Shown here: positions 7,105-13,126 of the stretch, piece after piece
How positions within the stretch are numbered: position 1 is the stretch's first letter
How the letters are laid out: each line of letters begins with the position of its first letter
NCBI RefSeq assembly: GCF_016597815.1
Contig: NZ_VCHA01000001.1
Span: 186,001 to 250,000 of the forward strand
DNA from: Marinobacter sp. DY40_1A1
Lineage (GTDB): Bacteria; Pseudomonadota; Gammaproteobacteria; Pseudomonadales; Oleiphilaceae
Length of the DNA stretch: 64,000 bases
Reading direction: 5' to 3'
Notes under the pieces: model-generated
Databases searched by the model: none
Told to the model about the DNA's origin: nothing
What the model saw: only the letters and a program-made list of their open reading frames with translations
Translations under genes and position numbers: made by a program

Positions 7105-8058
7105 ATGGACTTCAAAGACTATTACGCCGTGCTTGGTGTGAGCGAGTCTGCCTCCCCCGAGGAAATCAAAAAATCCTACCGGAAACTGGCCCGGAAATAT
7201 CACCCGGATGTCAGTAAAGAAGACAACGCCGACGAGAAGTTCAAAGATCTTGGCGAAGCCTACGAAGTACTGAAAGACCCGGAAAAGCGCGCGGAGTACG
7301 ACCAGCTGCGAAAATACGGCGCGCAGGCCGATGGCTCTTTCCAGCCACCTCCCGGTTGGCAGAGTGCCTCGGGGTTTGGTGGTGGTGGATACACTGATGC
7401 CGACTCCCGACAGTTCAGCGATTTTTTTGAGCAGATGTTTGGCGGTGGGCCTGGCCCTGGTGCTGGAGGTTTCCGGCAGAACATGCGCATGCGTGGTGAG
7501 GACGTTCATGCACGGTTGGCGCTGTTCCTTGAGGAAGTGTTTAATGGAACCGAAAAGCAGGTTTCCTTTGCAGTGCATGAAGCCGACGAGCATGGCCGTG
7601 TTATAGCGCGACAGAAAACACTGAATGTAAAAATCCCCGCCGGAATGCGCGAAGGGCAGCATTTGCGCCTGAAAGGCCAAGGGTCCCCTGGCTTTGGTGG
7701 TGCAGCACCTGGTGACTTGCTGATAGAGATTGAATTGGCTCCGCACCCACTGTTCAGCGTTGAGGGGCGGGATGTTGTTGTAACTGTGCCGGTGGCACCA
7801 TGGGAAGCGGCGCTCGGTGCTACAATCACTGTGCCCACTGTAGGCTCAAAGGTGAATGTGAAAGTGCCCAAGGGAACCTCCTCGGGGCGAAAGCTCCGCC
7901 TGAAAGGCAAGGGGCTGCCAGGCAAGCATCCGGGCGATCAGATTATTATTCTGCAGATTGTGATACCGGAACAGCATTCTGCAGAGGCTGAAAAGCTATA
8001 CGAGCAGCTTGCCGAGGCGGAAAAAGCATTCAACCCACGCAGCAAACTCCATCTGTGA
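7105..8058 (+). CDS. cbpA: Curved DNA-binding protein / DnaJ-type co-chaperone CbpA
   Basis: This 317-residue protein has a J domain at residues 1-70 with the Hsp70-stimulating HPD motif at 33-35, then a glycine/phenylalanine-rich linker (about 75-125), then two C-terminal substrate-binding beta domains. It lacks the cysteine-rich zinc finger of DnaJ, which defines the CbpA type. CbpA works with DnaK and also binds curved DNA in stationary phase. The next gene, 15 bp on, encodes its modulator CbpM, so this is the usual cbpAM operon. The start is ATG 7105 with GCGAGGAG upstream. Confidence 0.96.
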
Positions 8059-8073: not shown

Positions 8074-8418
8074 ATGAGTGATAGAAGCAGTATTCTGACT
8101 GTTGAAGTAATGGACTCCGATGGCAGCACCTTTACCCTTCACGAAGTGTGCGAGCGAGGTGAGTGTCACGCTGAGTTTGTCATCAAACTGGTGAGCTACG
8201 GCATTATTGCGCCGGTGGAGCCAGCGGCAGAGGCGCGCCAATGGCTGTTTGATGTGGCGGCACTCGCCCGGCTGCATAAAGCCAGGCGTTTGCAGCGTGA
8301 TCTGAAGATGAACCTGCCGGGCCTTGCGATGTCACTGGAACTCCTTGATGAGGTTCAGGAGATGCGACGCGAAGTAGAGCGCCTCAGCCGACAGTTGCAG
8401 CAGCTGACGGAGGAATAG
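8074..8418 (+). CDS. cbpM: Chaperone modulator CbpM
   Basis: This 114-residue protein has a MerR-like fold: the segment around L-H-E-V-C-E-R-G-E-C-H-A-E-F-V and Y-G-I-I-A-P is the helix-turn-helix part, and the C-terminal half is a coiled coil (L-D-E-V-Q-E-M-R-R-E-V-E-R-L). In E. coli CbpM binds the J domain of CbpA and blocks both its co-chaperone and DNA-binding activity. The position directly behind cbpA supports the same role here. The start is ATG 8074 with GGGGAG just before it. Confidence 0.92.
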   Translation: MSDRSSILTVEVMDSDGSTFTLHEVCERGECHAEFVIKLVSYGIIAPVEPAAEARQWLFDVAALARLHKARRLQRDLKMNLPGLAMSLELLDEVQEMRREVERLSRQLQQLTEE

Positions 8419-8442: not shown

Positions 8443-8616
8443 TTACCGGTTTTCGTCGAGAGCCCTGATCTCGGCGTAAATCCTTTCTGCCTCCTCTGTC
8501 AGGGTGCCATGGCTCCTTAAGTCCCCATTGCGCTGCGCATGCAGCGCTTTGGTCAACTTGGCTTCATACGCTTTCTGCAGCTTTTTCCTCGGATCACCTT
8601 TTAAAAAACCCAGCAT
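8443..8616 (-). CDS. Small DUF6435-type protein
   Basis: I translated this 57-residue protein by hand because it is short. It begins M-L-G-F-L-K-G-D-P-R-K-K-L-Q-K-A-Y and continues as a charged amphipathic helix (A-H-A-Q-R-N-G-D-like core, then E-E-A-E-R-I-Y-A-E-I). This matches the small DUF6435 proteins that start with GFLK-x-DP-x-KKL and are common in gammaproteobacteria. The function is unknown. It is convergent with cbpM, ending 24 bp from that gene's stop codon. The ribosome-binding site is weak (GACGGG). Confidence 0.78.
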   Translation of the reverse strand: MLGFLKGDPRKKLQKAYEAKLTKALHAQRNGDLRSHGTLTEEAERIYAEIRALDENR

Positions 8617-8716
8617 TTTCCCGTCTCGCTTTTCTGGTTCGTGGTCATAACTTTACGCAGATTCTGTCTGAAAGTTCATAAATTATCCGTGTCTGTTGCT
8701 GGACAAAATTGATTAG

Positions 8717-8732
8717 TGGGATTAAATTCCCA
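8717..8732. promoter_or_regulatory. Operator-like palindrome, site 1 (TGGGA-N6-TCCCA)
   Basis: The 16-bp element TGGGATTAAATTCCCA has perfect 5-bp arms around a six-base A/T spacer. It lies about 90 bp before the first DUF5666 lipoprotein gene, in a very A/T-rich stretch that probably holds the promoter. Two further copies with the same arm and spacer lengths occur at 8743 and 10283. A dimeric repressor or activator site is the natural reading, with the DUF6502 protein encoded nearby as the candidate binder (inference). Confidence 0.6.
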
Positions 8733-8742
8733 ATTATAAATT

Positions 8743-8758
8743 TGGGAAAATAATCCCA
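8743..8758. promoter_or_regulatory. Operator-like palindrome, site 2 (TGGGA-N6-TCCCA)
   Basis: The element TGGGAAAATAATCCCA is the second 16-bp copy, 26 bp centre to centre from site 1, which is about two and a half helical turns. Together the pair brackets an A/T-rich segment containing a TATAAA-like sequence at 8735-8740. The pair lies upstream of the lipoprotein gene that starts at 8820, whose own ribosome site is GGAG. Confidence 0.6.
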
Positions 8759-8819
8759 TTAATTGATTGGGCGATTGAAAATTGATTGCCAGAGCCTATA
8801 AGCAGCCCGGAGAAGTACG

Positions 8820-10247
8820 ATGAAACACAACTTATTAGCGACCGCCGTAAAGTTAGCTCTGACCGGAGCCCTCGCGGGCTCACTTGCAGCCTGCGGTGGT
8901 AGCTCAGGCGGCTCGGATTCTGCCGGCGTATCATCCGGCACCAGTGTTGGCCCGGTTTCCGGCTTTGGAAGCGTATTCGTAAATGGAACAAAGTTCAGTA
9001 CCGATGGCACTGTTAAGAGCAATGACGGCATTGAGCGTGAAGATCAGCTAGAGAAGGGCATGATCCTGAAAGTTCGGGGTGATTGGAGCGGCCATGGTGA
9101 GGGTAAAGCAAGAACTGTCTCCTACGATGACACCTTGCGTGGACCGGTTACCTCTATGACCTGGGATGCTGCTAGTCGCACAGGTAAAATCGTAATGCTT
9201 GGTCAGACGGTCGTTGTGGATGGCCGCACGGTATTTCGGGGCGCAACGCCGGGCTTTCTGGAAAGTAACGCCACCGGGTATCGGGTTCGCATTAGTGGCT
9301 GGCGCACCGCAGAAGGTGAATTCCGCGCAAGTTTTGTGGGCGCAAGGGCCGATGGTGTGGAATTTGATGGCGCCAATGATGTTGAAATAGAAGGGGTTGT
9401 GAAAGATCTCGATACATCTGCTCAAACCTTCACCATCAACGGCTTTTTAATCGACTACGAGCGTGCGAAGCCGGAAGACGGTTTCGCTTTGGAAGATCTG
9501 GCCAACGGCATGGTTGTGGAAGTAGAAGGTGCCTTATCTGCTGATAATAAAACGCTTCTGGCAACTGAAATTAGTGATGAAAGCGATTGGCTTGGCGGTG
9601 AAGATGACGACGTAGAGATTTCCGGTGAACTTTATGACTACGACGAAGCAGGCCAGCTGTTCTACATCAACGGCGTGTTGGTGCAGATAACCACCAACGC
9701 CGAGTTTGACGATATTCGCAAATCCGACCTGAAAAACGGTGTGCACGTGGAGGTTGAGGGCGAGTACCGCGATGGCGTTTTGTATGCTGAGGAAATCGAA
9801 GGCCAGGAAGCAGATGTTGAGCTTGAAGGTTTTGTTGAGTCCATCGATCTTGAGAATGAAACACTCATGGTCAGTGGGGTGAAGGTTCAGCTCACCACCA
9901 GCACTCTGATCGACGAAGGCGATGACAACGAACGGCGCAGTCGGGTTCGGGATATTCAAAGCTTCAAGGCAGGGGATTTTCTGGAAGTGGAAGGCTACCA
10001 GCGCAGCGACGATGGCGGCTATCTGGAAGCAGTGAGCGTGAAGTATGAAAGTGGAGACCCAAGTGGCTGCGCAGAACTGGAAGCCCGTGTCTCTGTGACT
10101 GATCCGGGTTCAATCCGCGTTATGAACCTGGAAATTCTACCAGGCGCATACAGCCTTGCTGGTTTGGATCTCGATGAAGAGGTTGAGCTTGAGTATTGCC
10201 CAACAGGCGCTGGCGAGTACGATTTGAGCGGCAGCCCTGAGCAGTAG
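8820..10247 (+). CDS. DUF5666 repeat lipoprotein (first copy)
   Basis: This 475-residue exported protein has a lipoprotein signal peptide with the lipobox L-A-A-C, lipidated at Cys25. A segment S-V-G-P-V-S-G-F-G-S-V-F-V-N-G follows at about 42-56. The rest is built from beta-rich repeats of roughly 65-75 residues (about 187-251, 265-329, 333-409 and a divergent last one), each with a TFxxNG strand, a D-L-x-x-G turn and a V-E-V-E-G strand, as in DUF5666. It is very acidic, so calcium binding or surface exposure is possible. A homologue lies at 11630. The function is unknown; the context links it to two DUF6502-type proteins. Confidence 0.87.
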   Translation: MKHNLLATAVKLALTGALAGSLAACGGSSGGSDSAGVSSGTSVGPVSGFGSVFVNGTKFSTDGTVKSNDGIEREDQLEKGMILKVRGDWSGHGEGKARTVSYDDTLRGPVTSMTWDAASRTGKIVMLGQTVVVDGRTVFRGATPGFLESNATGYRVRISGWRTAEGEFRASFVGARADGVEFDGANDVEIEGVVKDLDTSAQTFTINGFLIDYERAKPEDGFALEDLANGMVVEVEGALSADNKTLLATEISDESDWLGGEDDDVEISGELYDYDEAGQLFYINGVLVQITTNAEFDDIRKSDLKNGVHVEVEGEYRDGVLYAEEIEGQEADVELEGFVESIDLENETLMVSGVKVQLTTSTLIDEGDDNERRSRVRDIQSFKAGDFLEVEGYQRSDDGGYLEAVSVKYESGDPSGCAELEARVSVTDPGSIRVMNLEILPGAYSLAGLDLDEEVELEYCPTGAGEYDLSGSPEQ

Positions 10248-10282
10248 GTCCCCAACTGTGTTTCTGGCTATTAGCGCCAATA

Positions 10283-10298
10283 TGGGAATATAATCCCA
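10283..10298. promoter_or_regulatory. Operator-like palindrome, site 3, overlapping a TATAAT at the DUF6502 start
   Basis: The element TGGGAATATAATCCCA ends three bases before the ATG of the DUF6502 gene. It contains a perfect TATAAT at 10289-10294, seven bases before the ATG, and no Shine-Dalgarno sequence is present. If that hexamer is the -10 box, transcription would begin at or next to the ATG and give a leaderless message whose promoter is covered by the palindrome. No convincing -35 box is seen, which could mean an activator is needed. Read-through from the upstream gene, 54 bp away, is the alternative. Confidence 0.6.
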
Positions 10299-10301
10299 AC
10301 C

Positions 10302-11180
10302 ATGAGCGAGTCCAATACCAACCCATTGCACCAGGCCCTGTTCCGCATTCTGCGACCTCTTGCGAGGTTGCTGCTGCGGAACGGAATTCCATTTGGTGAG
10401 TTCGCCGAGCTGGTCAAGCGAGCCTATGTGGAAGCGGCACTGGAGGACTTCCCCGGTGATCGGCGCAAACCTACCGACTCCGGGGCGGCTGTTATGACGG
10501 GGTTGACGCGCAAAGAAGTTAAGCGCCAGCGAGAGATTCTTGCGGGCCAGCACATAGGAAAATCCGACGTGCTGCACGCTAATCGTGCTTCTCGCGTTGT
10601 GTCTGGCTGGGTGCACGATGCTCTATTTCAGAGTCCTTCCGGAGAGCCAGCTATACTTACCTTTGACGGGGCGTTGAGTTTCAGCGAACTGGCAAAAAAG
10701 TACAGTGGAGATATGCCGCCACGTTCTGTACTGGATGAGCTGTTAAGGGTTGGTGTGGTGTCTGTAGATAGCGATACCGGTAAGCTCGCACTGATGAAAA
10801 GAGCCTATGTGCCCGCTGGAGATAGCCAGGAAATGCTCCAGATCTTTGGTGAGGATGTATCAGATCTTATAGCGACAATAGACCATAACCTGGTCTGCGA
10901 TGCTGGCAGGCAGCGGCCGTTGTTCCAGCGCACACTGACGTATAACAACATTCCACCGGAAGTTATGGAAGCGTGGCGCAGCCACGCGGCGGAGCAATCC
11001 CAGAAACTGCTGGAGCAGTTGGACTCCTGGCTGGGGCCAAAAGACCGGGATGTCACGGGCAGCCAGACGGCCGCCTCACCCCAGGATTCTTACAGAACGG
11101 GCATCAGTATTTTCTATTTCGAAGAAGCTACTGCTGCAGAAACATCCCCACTCGGCTCCAAAAGAGAGAAAGTACTATGA
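10302..11180 (+). CDS. DUF6502 family protein, putative DNA-binding regulator
   Basis: This 292-residue cytoplasmic protein begins with helices around L-H-Q-A-L-F-R-I-L-R-P-L-A-R and F-G-E-F-A-E-L-V-K-R (residues 9-40). A helix-turn-helix-like stretch follows at 57-80 (T-D-S-G-A-A-V-M-T-G-L-T-R-K-E-V-K-R-Q-R). A central domain (about 98-170) contains V-L-D-E-L-L-R-V-G-V-V, and a C-terminal part is of unclear fold. This matches DUF6502, a family without proven function. The layout suggests a transcription regulator. Its stop codon overlaps the start of the next gene (ATGA). A palindrome at its own start suggests autoregulation. Confidence 0.82.
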   Translation: MSESNTNPLHQALFRILRPLARLLLRNGIPFGEFAELVKRAYVEAALEDFPGDRRKPTDSGAAVMTGLTRKEVKRQREILAGQHIGKSDVLHANRASRVVSGWVHDALFQSPSGEPAILTFDGALSFSELAKKYSGDMPPRSVLDELLRVGVVSVDSDTGKLALMKRAYVPAGDSQEMLQIFGEDVSDLIATIDHNLVCDAGRQRPLFQRTLTYNNIPPEVMEAWRSHAAEQSQKLLEQLDSWLGPKDRDVTGSQTAASPQDSYRTGISIFYFEEATAAETSPLGSKREKVL

Positions 11181-11578
11181 AATCCGGCAGCCAGCCAAAG
11201 TTTGTGAGTCGCTGGGAACCTACCGAGCTTGCCAGCACCCTGTTGTCTGCTCCAAGCCGCGAAGTTGTTAGACATTGGATCAGTGAGATTGGGTTTCTTG
11301 ATGAAAACCTGCACCCGGTTCTTTTGTCGATGAATGATCAGAAAGAACCGTCGTTGGACCAGCTTGTCCAGGCGGTTAATCCCGGTTTTTCCACTTCTGT
11401 GGTTCTAAACGAACTGCTGCGCAAAGGCGTGGTTGAGCAGTTGGAGAACGGGCAAATCTTGCTAAGGCGCAGCACCTATATACACGATGTGCCCAGCTTT
11501 GAGGTTTCACCCGGGGTTAGGCGCCGAAAGCACAGATCCGACGGCAGCGCGGGACGCCGGCACAGCGATGATTTTTGA
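11177..11578 (+). CDS. Half-length DUF6502-related protein
   Basis: This 133-residue protein overlaps the preceding gene by four bases, so the two are translationally coupled. Residues 29-102 align by eye with residues 98-170 of the DUF6502 protein before it: V-x-x-W, then V-L-N-E-L-L-R-K-G-V-V against V-L-D-E-L-L-R-V-G-V-V, then a G-x-x-x-L-x-R-x-x-Y end. It lacks the N-terminal helix-turn-helix region and the long C-terminus, and ends in a basic tail rich in R, K and H. It could heterodimerise with its full-length neighbour and modulate it. The frame is intact, so it is not an obvious pseudogene. Confidence 0.72.
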   Translation: MKSGSQPKFVSRWEPTELASTLLSAPSREVVRHWISEIGFLDENLHPVLLSMNDQKEPSLDQLVQAVNPGFSTSVVLNELLRKGVVEQLENGQILLRRSTYIHDVPSFEVSPGVRRRKHRSDGSAGRRHSDDF

Positions 11579-11592
11579 TTTGGGGACCCAAA
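11579..11592. promoter_or_regulatory. Short palindrome before the second DUF5666 gene
   Basis: The sequence TTTGGGGACCCAAA has 6-bp arms around GA, starting at the base after the previous stop codon. It shares a GGG/CCC core with the three 16-bp palindromes of this cluster but has different spacing. It may be a diverged operator or an unrelated site. Confidence 0.3.
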
Positions 11593-11629
11593 ATATGATG
11601 CCGCGGGCCTATCCTACATGGTGAGCACA

Positions 11630-13126
11630 ATGAAACTGATATCCCGAAAACGTCCTTTGACTGCACTCGCGACGGTCCTGCTTCTAGGCCTTTTTTCAGC
11701 CTGTGGTGGTGAATCTCAGGTAGCAGATGGGGGCATTCGTGGCACCGGGTCGAGCGTGGGACCGGTATCGGGGTTTGGCAGTGTTTTTGTGAATGGGGTC
11801 GAGTTTTTTACGGATTCAATTCTTAACGAGAAAGTAGAAAGTAACGATGGGATTGATACAGAAGGCGATCTCAACGAAGGCATGATTCTCCGAATCGAAG
11901 GGCAGTGGCGCATCGACGGCACCGGTGCAGCGGATTCCATGGAGTATGACGACACCTTGCGCGGTGACCTGTCCAACTTGGTCCGTGGCGCGCCTGGAGA
12001 GCCAGTCAGGTTTGAAATATACGGACAACAAGTTGTCGCAGACAGGCAAACCGTCTTGAAAGGAAGGACGCTTGCAACCTTGGCCAACAATGATTTTGTA
12101 CGAGTCAGTGCCTGGCGGCAGCCAGATGGCAGATACCGTGCCAGCTATATTGGCTTCAACCCAGTGTTTTACGGTGCTGACCCTATAGAACTCGAAGGCC
12201 CGGTTGATGCGGGTTCTGTTGAAGCTGACCAGTTCACTATGAACGGTGCTGTGATCAAGTTTGGTGATGACAGCTTTGCGGAAGGAATATCAGCTGAAGA
12301 TCTGAAGCCTGGTGCCTATTTTGAAGTGGAAGGGTACAAAGAGTTGGCGGGAGGCGCGATTGTCGCGACACGAATCCAGCTTGATGATTTCCGCCGCTAT
12401 CGCCCGGTAGGTGAAGATATTGAGATAGCCGGTCCTGTGTCATCAGATTACAACAGAACCGACAATACGTTCGGACTGAACGGTTTGACGATCCAGGTAA
12501 CGAGCGCTACAGAGCTGGATGATATAACTCTCGATGACCTCAAGGCTGGCTTGCTTGTGCAAGTTGAAGGCGAGTTTGTTTCGGGTGATCTGGTTCGGGC
12601 CACGGAGATCGAAGTCCGGGATGGCGATGCGGAAGTCTCCGGGACTATAACGGCCAATGATGTAAATGTGGGCCAGGACAGCCTCACTGTGGGTGGCGTG
12701 CGTGTTCAAATAACCTCAAGGACCATCATTACCGATGACAGTTCTGGCGACAGATTAACGATCTACAAACTTTTGGGACCTGATGCTGATCACGGTGCAC
12801 AGTTTGTAGAGGTTGAGGTGACAGGTCTCCAAAAAAAGGATGATCAAGGTGCGGTGTATATTGAGGCCTTGCAGATAGAGAGAGAACTCTCGGACGAGCC
12901 GGGTTTAGAATATGAGCTTGAAGGTACGCTGGCTGCACTGGCTAAAAAAGACCTCTCCACTTCGATCATAACCGTTCTGGGTGTGCGAATAGAGGTAGAT
13001 AGTGACATATTGCCTTATGAGAATTTGGAGGAGTACCTGCGAGAGAATGTGTCGGTTTTGCTCGAAGTAGAGTACATAAGAAACGACCTTGACCAGTACG
13101 AAGCGCTCAGTGTGGAGCTGGATTGA
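11630..13126 (+). CDS. DUF5666 repeat lipoprotein (second copy)
   Basis: This 498-residue exported protein is a paralogue of the one at 8820. The signal peptide ends in the lipobox F-S-A-C, and the mature start again holds S-S-V-G-P-V-S-G-F-G-S-V-F-V-N-G followed by S-N-D-G-I and Y-D-D-T-L-R-G. At least four DUF5666-type beta repeats follow, each with an N-G-x-x-I or G-V-R-V strand and a V-E-V-E-G-like strand. I prefer ATG 11630, which has GGTGAG upstream, over ATG 11618, which adds four residues. The gene lies 51 bp after the half-length DUF6502 gene and is probably in the same transcription unit. Confidence 0.85.
   Translation: MKLISRKRPLTALATVLLLGLFSACGGESQVADGGIRGTGSSVGPVSGFGSVFVNGVEFFTDSILNEKVESNDGIDTEGDLNEGMILRIEGQWRIDGTGAADSMEYDDTLRGDLSNLVRGAPGEPVRFEIYGQQVVADRQTVLKGRTLATLANNDFVRVSAWRQPDGRYRASYIGFNPVFYGADPIELEGPVDAGSVEADQFTMNGAVIKFGDDSFAEGISAEDLKPGAYFEVEGYKELAGGAIVATRIQLDDFRRYRPVGEDIEIAGPVSSDYNRTDNTFGLNGLTIQVTSATELDDITLDDLKAGLLVQVEGEFVSGDLVRATEIEVRDGDAEVSGTITANDVNVGQDSLTVGGVRVQITSRTIITDDSSGDRLTIYKLLGPDADHGAQFVEVEVTGLQKKDDQGAVYIEALQIERELSDEPGLEYELEGTLAALAKKDLSTSIITVLGVRIEVDSDILPYENLEEYLRENVSVLLEVEYIRNDLDQYEALSVELD

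Follow-up and report, generated by a model that had tools for sequence, protein, structure and literature searches.

Three copies of the palindrome TGGGA-N6-TCCCA stand before genes of two protein families, DUF6502 (PF20112) and DUF5666 (PF18914), to which Pfam gives no function, in a 64,000-nucleotide stretch of the Marinobacter sp. DY40_1A1 genome, the whole of which we call the window. Which protein reads these sites, and with what effect? In the open-licence literature searched, DUF6502 is named nowhere, and DUF5666 is named in gene tables in the excerpts that matched. At the upstream side of the locus lie genes for a DnaJ/CbpA-type protein (7105-8058) and a MerR_2 protein (8074-8418), which we take to be CbpM-like and which sits just upstream of the first DUF5666 promoter. 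Then follows, on the plus strand, a gene for a putative lipoprotein of 475 aa with DUF5666 (OB-fold-like) repeats (8820..10247; PF18914, 4.6e-41, 4 stretches). The DUF6502 gene (10302..11180, plus strand) encodes a protein of 292 aa, which we propose to be a dimeric helix-turn-helix repressor with a HetR-like predicted fold; it matches the full-length PF20112 profile with 200.5 bits, against a curated cut-off of 27, over residues 11-279. Its stop codon is overlapped (ATGA) by a partial DUF6502-like gene of 133 aa (11177..11578, plus strand; PF20112, 7.1e-7, profile positions 91-164), and a second DUF5666 lipoprotein (11618..13126, plus strand; PF18914, 2.9e-39, 4 stretches) has a GGIRGTG segment after its lipobox; lipoboxes of DUF5666 proteins were called by eye. 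These three genes, from DUF6502 to the second DUF5666 gene, are probably co-transcribed as one unit. Because the small gene is matched in 8 of 44 Marinobacter genomes without full-length DUF6502 (G008, G027, G034, G044, G045, G072, G091 and G094), it may have an independent role.

The initial annotation had described three sites whose 5-bp arms are perfect and whose spacers contain only A and T, and its positions proved correct: the candidate operators, dyads without assigned strand, are O1 (TGGGATTAAATTCCCA, 8717..8732), O2 (TGGGAAAATAATCCCA, 8743..8758, 26 bp past O1) and O3 (TGGGAATATAATCCCA, 10283..10298), with spacers TTAAAT, AAATAA and ATATAA. Three copies are indeed too many for chance, with 0.09 expected in the window and none of 100 shuffles reaching three. 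The host genome (3,858,407 bases, 17 contigs) contains the pattern in 6 places, just 3 of which, O1, O2 and O3, have an A/T-only spacer; the spacers of the other three contain G+C. Two sites were said to precede the first DUF5666 gene, and O1 and O2 do so, beginning 103 and 77 bp before its ATG (8820). The third had been placed on the start of the DUF6502 gene: it is at the DUF6502 promoter but not on the coding start, since O3 ends 3 nt before the ATG (10302), on the predicted -10 element. In the gap that separates the small gene from the second DUF5666 gene (11579-11617) there is also a short TTGGGGACCCAA dyad, with a spacing unlike that of the operator.

The claim that the palindrome marks these promoters was checked at orthologous loci in the best 80 of 217 relatives, of which 46 are Marinobacter loci, the nearest to that of the host among these 80, and 34 are not. 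A palindrome precedes DUF6502 in 46/46 Marinobacter loci, and 41/46 have a tandem pair before the first DUF5666 gene; the exceptions have one exact site (L102, L104) or none (L069, L078, L107). Spacing between the tandem sites is 26 bp in 29 of the 41 loci, 25 in 9, 27 in 2 and 24 in 1. For the DUF5666 promoter we predict a -35 element TGGACA (8700..8705, plus strand), at the same offset in 36/41 tandem-site loci, and a -10 element TAAATT (8723..8728, plus strand; TAAATT in 29/41 loci) inside O1 after a 17-bp spacer; the -10-like hexamer of the first palindrome follows TGGACA by 17 bp in 36/41. O2 would then occupy about +8 to +23 of the transcript. Inside O3 lies the predicted -10 element of the DUF6502 promoter, TATAAT (10289..10294, plus strand), with the predicted transcription start approximately at the ATG; the hexamer is TACAAT in 39 of the 46 loci, TATAAT in 6 and TAAAAT in 1. 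The gap between palindrome and ATG measures 3 nt in 45 of 50 Marinobacter sites (a few loci are counted twice), 4 nt in 3 others and 2 nt in the remaining 2. Comparison across Marinobacter places a weak -35-like TGGCTA 18 bp upstream (10265..10270, plus strand), at whose offset TGGCTT stands in 18/46 loci and other hexamers elsewhere. This poor -35 counts against the promoter model in Marinobacter; in other taxa a TTGACA-like -35 lies one base nearer.

The palindrome recurs at DUF6502 loci of other phyla. The 34 non-Marinobacter loci come from Nitrospirae, Deltaproteobacteria, SAR324, Desulfobacterales, Burkholderiales, Chromatiales, Thiodiazotropha and others, and GGGAN6TCCC is present somewhere in 33 of them; the sole locus without it (L126) carries TTTGGG-N8-CCCAAA, by eye. 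In 19/34 there are 3-4 nt between its end and the start codon; elsewhere it stands farther upstream, by up to 1.8 kb. A DUF5666 frame, usually overlapping or after DUF6502, is found in 30/34 (not in L117, L121, L122 or L139). In a class-wide search, DUF6502 was found in 99 of 369 genomes, from which we took the 30 loci returned and 80 further regions. Matches covering fewer than 180 profile positions were dropped first; removing duplicates, judged on the last 180 residues, and any locus with less than 160 nt upstream then took the set from 202 to 189. The 143 unique non-Marinobacter DUF6502 promoters, of 205 bases each, were scored against plain letter shuffles. GGGA-N6-TCCC occurred in 60/143, against 0.35 in shuffles; with N5 there were 12 (0.25 in shuffles), with N4 2, with N3 1 and with N7-N10 none. 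Within the 205 bases, 72/143 promoters had neither the N5 nor the N6 form, a point against the proposed DUF6502 repressor; some of these 72 carry the motif farther upstream or before DUF5666. The controls CCCT-N6-AGGG and AGGG-N6-CCCT were each found in 0/143; TCCC-N6-GGGA was found in 7/143 (0.40 in shuffles) and in 1/46 Marinobacter promoters, and of five listed among these eight control sites, four overlap a real operator and one does not. The 59 non-Marinobacter sites that lie close to a start (duplicates kept) give the consensus TTGACA, 17 bp and a TANAWT within the palindrome; the start codon comes 3 nt past the palindrome in 25 and 4 nt past it in 12. This geometry places the predicted transcript start within about 2 nt of the ATG, and the mRNA would therefore be leaderless.

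As to the protein, a helix-turn-helix-like stretch had been noticed in DUF6502; a helix-turn-helix is predicted, and the AlphaFold model resembles the DNA-binding protein HetR. HetR, with its DNA-binding, flap and hood domains, is the heterocyst regulator of Anabaena and Fischerella and is known from cyanobacteria. In a Foldseek search with the DUF6502 model, HetR structures 4yrv, 4j00, 4izz and 3qod took ranks 1-4 of 350,542 PDB chains, with nearly full-length alignments and a TM-score of only 0.29-0.35. Among the 50 matches listed by VIA-align, and for the families within that listing, non-HetR rows span at most 98 residues, mostly about 29-87. The link to HetR rests on predicted fold, because sequence methods miss HetR: profiles searched against PDB sequences returned no HetR chain (three weak non-HetR matches in one search, zero in a second), a Pfam scan of 46 DUF6502 members at E 10 did not find the HetR family, and hhalign gave a probability of 0.1-0.3%, with 32/160 shuffled HetR pairs scoring as well and 2 sequences on the HetR side. 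A search for HetR in plasmid records gave no match, and among the excerpts of open-licence literature listed as matches we found no HetR relative outside cyanobacteria. The best local alignment paired residues 164-251 of DUF6502 with 210-284 of HetR, close to the C-terminus in each protein; it was not significant and was rejected as evidence.

HetR binds an inverted repeat as a dimer and requires GGG-N5-CCC, in which GGG/CCC is indispensable, according to excerpts of PMC4649674; it also binds its own promoter region (PMC4192349). The candidate DUF6502 operator shares with the HetR site an inverted repeat of GGG/CCC half-sites, yet at GGG-N8-CCC (N7 in one clade) it has a longer spacing than that of HetR and does not follow the HetR spacing. 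DUF6502 Lys71, invariant in the 46 proteins of the alignment, lines up by eye with HetR Lys73, which contacts GGG. Should the resemblance prove genuine, HetR, the master regulator of heterocyst patterning, would have relatives in ordinary bacteria, and this would bear on its origin.

The likeness might extend to a peptide, since the PatS peptide RGSGR inhibits HetR (PMC12756182, in excerpt). A GGI-x-GTG segment just after the lipobox of DUF5666 lipoproteins encoded with DUF6502 could be released and feed back on that protein, which would itself be a remote non-cyanobacterial HetR homologue, as RGSGR does on HetR; we regard this as very improbable, and the likeness of GGIRGTG to RGSGR as speculation by analogy. 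In Marinobacter, the DUF5666 protein downstream of DUF6502 reads GGIRGTG among the matches listed. Of 143 DUF5666 frames, 116 have a GFGS motif, and in the N-termini of these RG[ST]G occurs in 46/89 from Marinobacter and 0/27 others, GGTG in 14 of the 27 non-Marinobacter ones and RG[ST]G[RK] in 0/116.

From these comparisons we consider it likely that a DUF6502 dimer is an autorepressor and also represses the DUF5666 lipoprotein gene, through TGGGA-N6-TCCCA. That DUF6502, as a dimeric helix-turn-helix transcription factor, would bind the palindrome is very likely; repression, should it bind, is a good deal more likely than the converse, and we infer it from the predicted promoter geometry. The candidate operator overlaps the predicted core promoter of DUF6502, as an autorepressor's operator should: because it lies on the -10 box, a bound dimer could block RNA polymerase at a promoter whose mRNA would start at or adjacent to the ATG. 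At the upstream DUF5666 promoter, one dimer would cover the -10 box and a second would sit 26 bp downstream, so that the lipoprotein would be co-repressed. A signal, perhaps sensed by the C-terminal part, would release the repressor. Lambda CI is a classical autorepressor with an operator over the -10 box, and some such systems have leaderless mRNA. The DUF6502 arrangement is alike in that the operator overlaps its own predicted core promoter and the ATG stands at the predicted start site; it differs in protein family, in operator and in having an envelope lipoprotein as second target.

Repression is not a given, because HetR activates at least some of its targets, and DUF6502 could bind these sites and activate, at all or some promoters, in the manner of HetR. 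HetR, to which the model is closest in fold, activates patS (PMC12756182, in excerpt) and, according to excerpts of PMC4192349, binds upstream of genes whose expression rises in heterocysts. Against this, relative to the predicted transcripts O1 and O3 have their centres near -10 and O2 near +15; an activator usually binds at -35 or farther upstream. We consider activation unlikely.

The palindromes might instead belong to a different regulator, the CbpM-like neighbour or a global factor, which would control both DUF5666 and DUF6502; the MerR-type gene is directly upstream, and binding by DUF6502 is itself deduced from comparison. The distribution of the motif makes this distinctly improbable. 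In a sample of 100 Marinobacter genomes from the larger genus, TGGGAW6TCCCA occurs in 55 and a reversed-pattern control in 1. Full-length DUF6502 (E below 1e-50) is present in 56, of which 55 carry the A/T-spacer motif, against 0 of the 44 without it (Fisher 9e-28, a value that ignores the relatedness of the genomes). The one DUF6502 genome missed, G052, has TGGGATTGTATTCCCA and TGGGAATGTTTTCCCA (plus strand of the record), with G in the spacer, before both genes. Among the sites listed, all 75 that were placed relative to DUF6502 (39 genomes) lie 21-1682 bp upstream of it. G008, G027 and G034 keep the MerR-type gene (by eye) but have lost DUF6502 or carry it broken, and they no longer have the tandem sites. 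The A/T-only pattern is narrow: G027 and G034, which are among the 44, each have one TGGGAATACAATCCCA, with C in the spacer, ahead of a broken DUF6502, and fall outside it; no palindrome was found at the G008 locus on inspection. DUF5666 matches occur in 56/100 genomes. In G056 (clearly) and G060 (one weak match, 1.4e-4) DUF5666 is present while DUF6502 and the A/T-spacer motif are absent, and G074 and G095 have DUF6502 and the motif without a Pfam DUF5666 match, the G095 operator lying at the DUF6502 start and G074 retaining a short DUF5666 frame by a custom profile. The motif therefore tracks DUF6502 rather than DUF5666, on the few genomes that separate the two.

Also against a different regulator, motif and DUF6502 stay together in other phyla, and the spacing of the operator follows the DUF6502 tree. 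We built a FastTree tree of 151 proteins (the 143 non-Marinobacter ones and 8 of the 46 from Marinobacter), 79 of which carry an N5 or N6 label. The label changes once on the tree; in 200 label shuffles it changed at least 8 times (mean 10.5). Of the 32 proteins in the N5 clade, 17 have TGGGA-N5-TCCCA with no more than 1 mismatch and 0 have the N6 form; with no more than 2 mismatches, 20 have GTGGGA-N5-TCCCAC and 1 has its N6 form. Of the 110 non-Marinobacter proteins outside that clade, 71 have TGGGA-N6-TCCCA with no more than 1 mismatch and 0 have the N5 form. With at most 2 mismatches, N5 and N7 rise to 66/110 each against 81 for N6, which we take to be the N6 palindrome one base out of register, and for this reason used the 1-mismatch counts. 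With one clade having GTGGGA-N5-TCCCAC, operator and protein thus co-vary. Position 69, numbered as in the window protein and within the helix TG-x-x-RKEV, is His in 11/11 N5 proteins and 1/68 N6 proteins (L176), and in 24 proteins without a detected site; as this reflects a single evolutionary event, the link is suggestive only. Symmetric changes in single promoters, CGGGA..TCCCG (L234) and AGGGA..TCCCT (L216), also suggest that a dimer recognises the dyad. The profile, the other phyla and the single spacing change together support what the initial annotation proposed, that one shared regulator, DUF6502, would run a self-regulated envelope-protein system.

That the palindromes act as RNA hairpins, as attenuator or terminator, is scarcely credible: O2 is within the predicted transcript and could form a 5-bp hairpin, but O3 is at the -10 box, ahead of the predicted transcript, and folding of the leader does not support an attenuator hairpin (z -0.76; 42/200 shuffles at least as good).

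If control by a DUF6502 repressor is true, a domain present in several phyla gains a role, as a transcription-factor family with an operator, targets and a testable mechanism, and DUF5666 lipoproteins gain a regulator. The system is simple to test, because among the sites listed the Marinobacter A/T-spacer operator is confined to the DUF6502 locus.

Sites away from DUF6502 occur in other genomes, and those before DUF5666 genes speak for the proposed regulation. The genome that contains L143 has a tandem pair (L163), spaced 26 bp, before a DUF5666 gene distant from DUF6502, with a promoter read by eye as TTGACC-N17-TATATT. A single site precedes an unlinked DUF5666 gene in Thiodiazotropha (L172); sites precede DUF4382 genes (L161, L177), and Nitrospirota sites stand beside a sigma-70-like gene (L148, and L146 by likeness). 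In Thiodiazotropha genome G145, TGGGA-W6-TCCCA precedes multihaem cytochrome genes (MtrC/MtrF-like, Paired_CXXCH; L170, L173). Summed by hand over 33 far genomes, the any-spacer pattern occurs 138 times and the reversed control 67 times, which means that many of the single sites in these genomes are due to chance. In G145 the reversed control, at 9, exceeds the pattern, at 5, and the cytochrome-gene sites may well be chance.

In two Nitrospirota records the core palindrome lies within longer inverted repeats of about 30-42 bp, by eye (L149, L150, L154, L159), whose outer arms vary by site yet remain complementary. Two contig ends, L152 and L153, start within what is apparently the DUF6502 promoter of L155. 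L060 and L061 are decayed DUF6502 loci in which the gene is broken or partly deleted, the DUF5666 gene and tandem sites are gone and one intact palindrome precedes the remnant. Both contain sequence similar to a small minus-strand open frame of the window, about 57 codons by eye, at about 8450-8620, in the interval from the MerR-type gene to the DUF5666 promoter.
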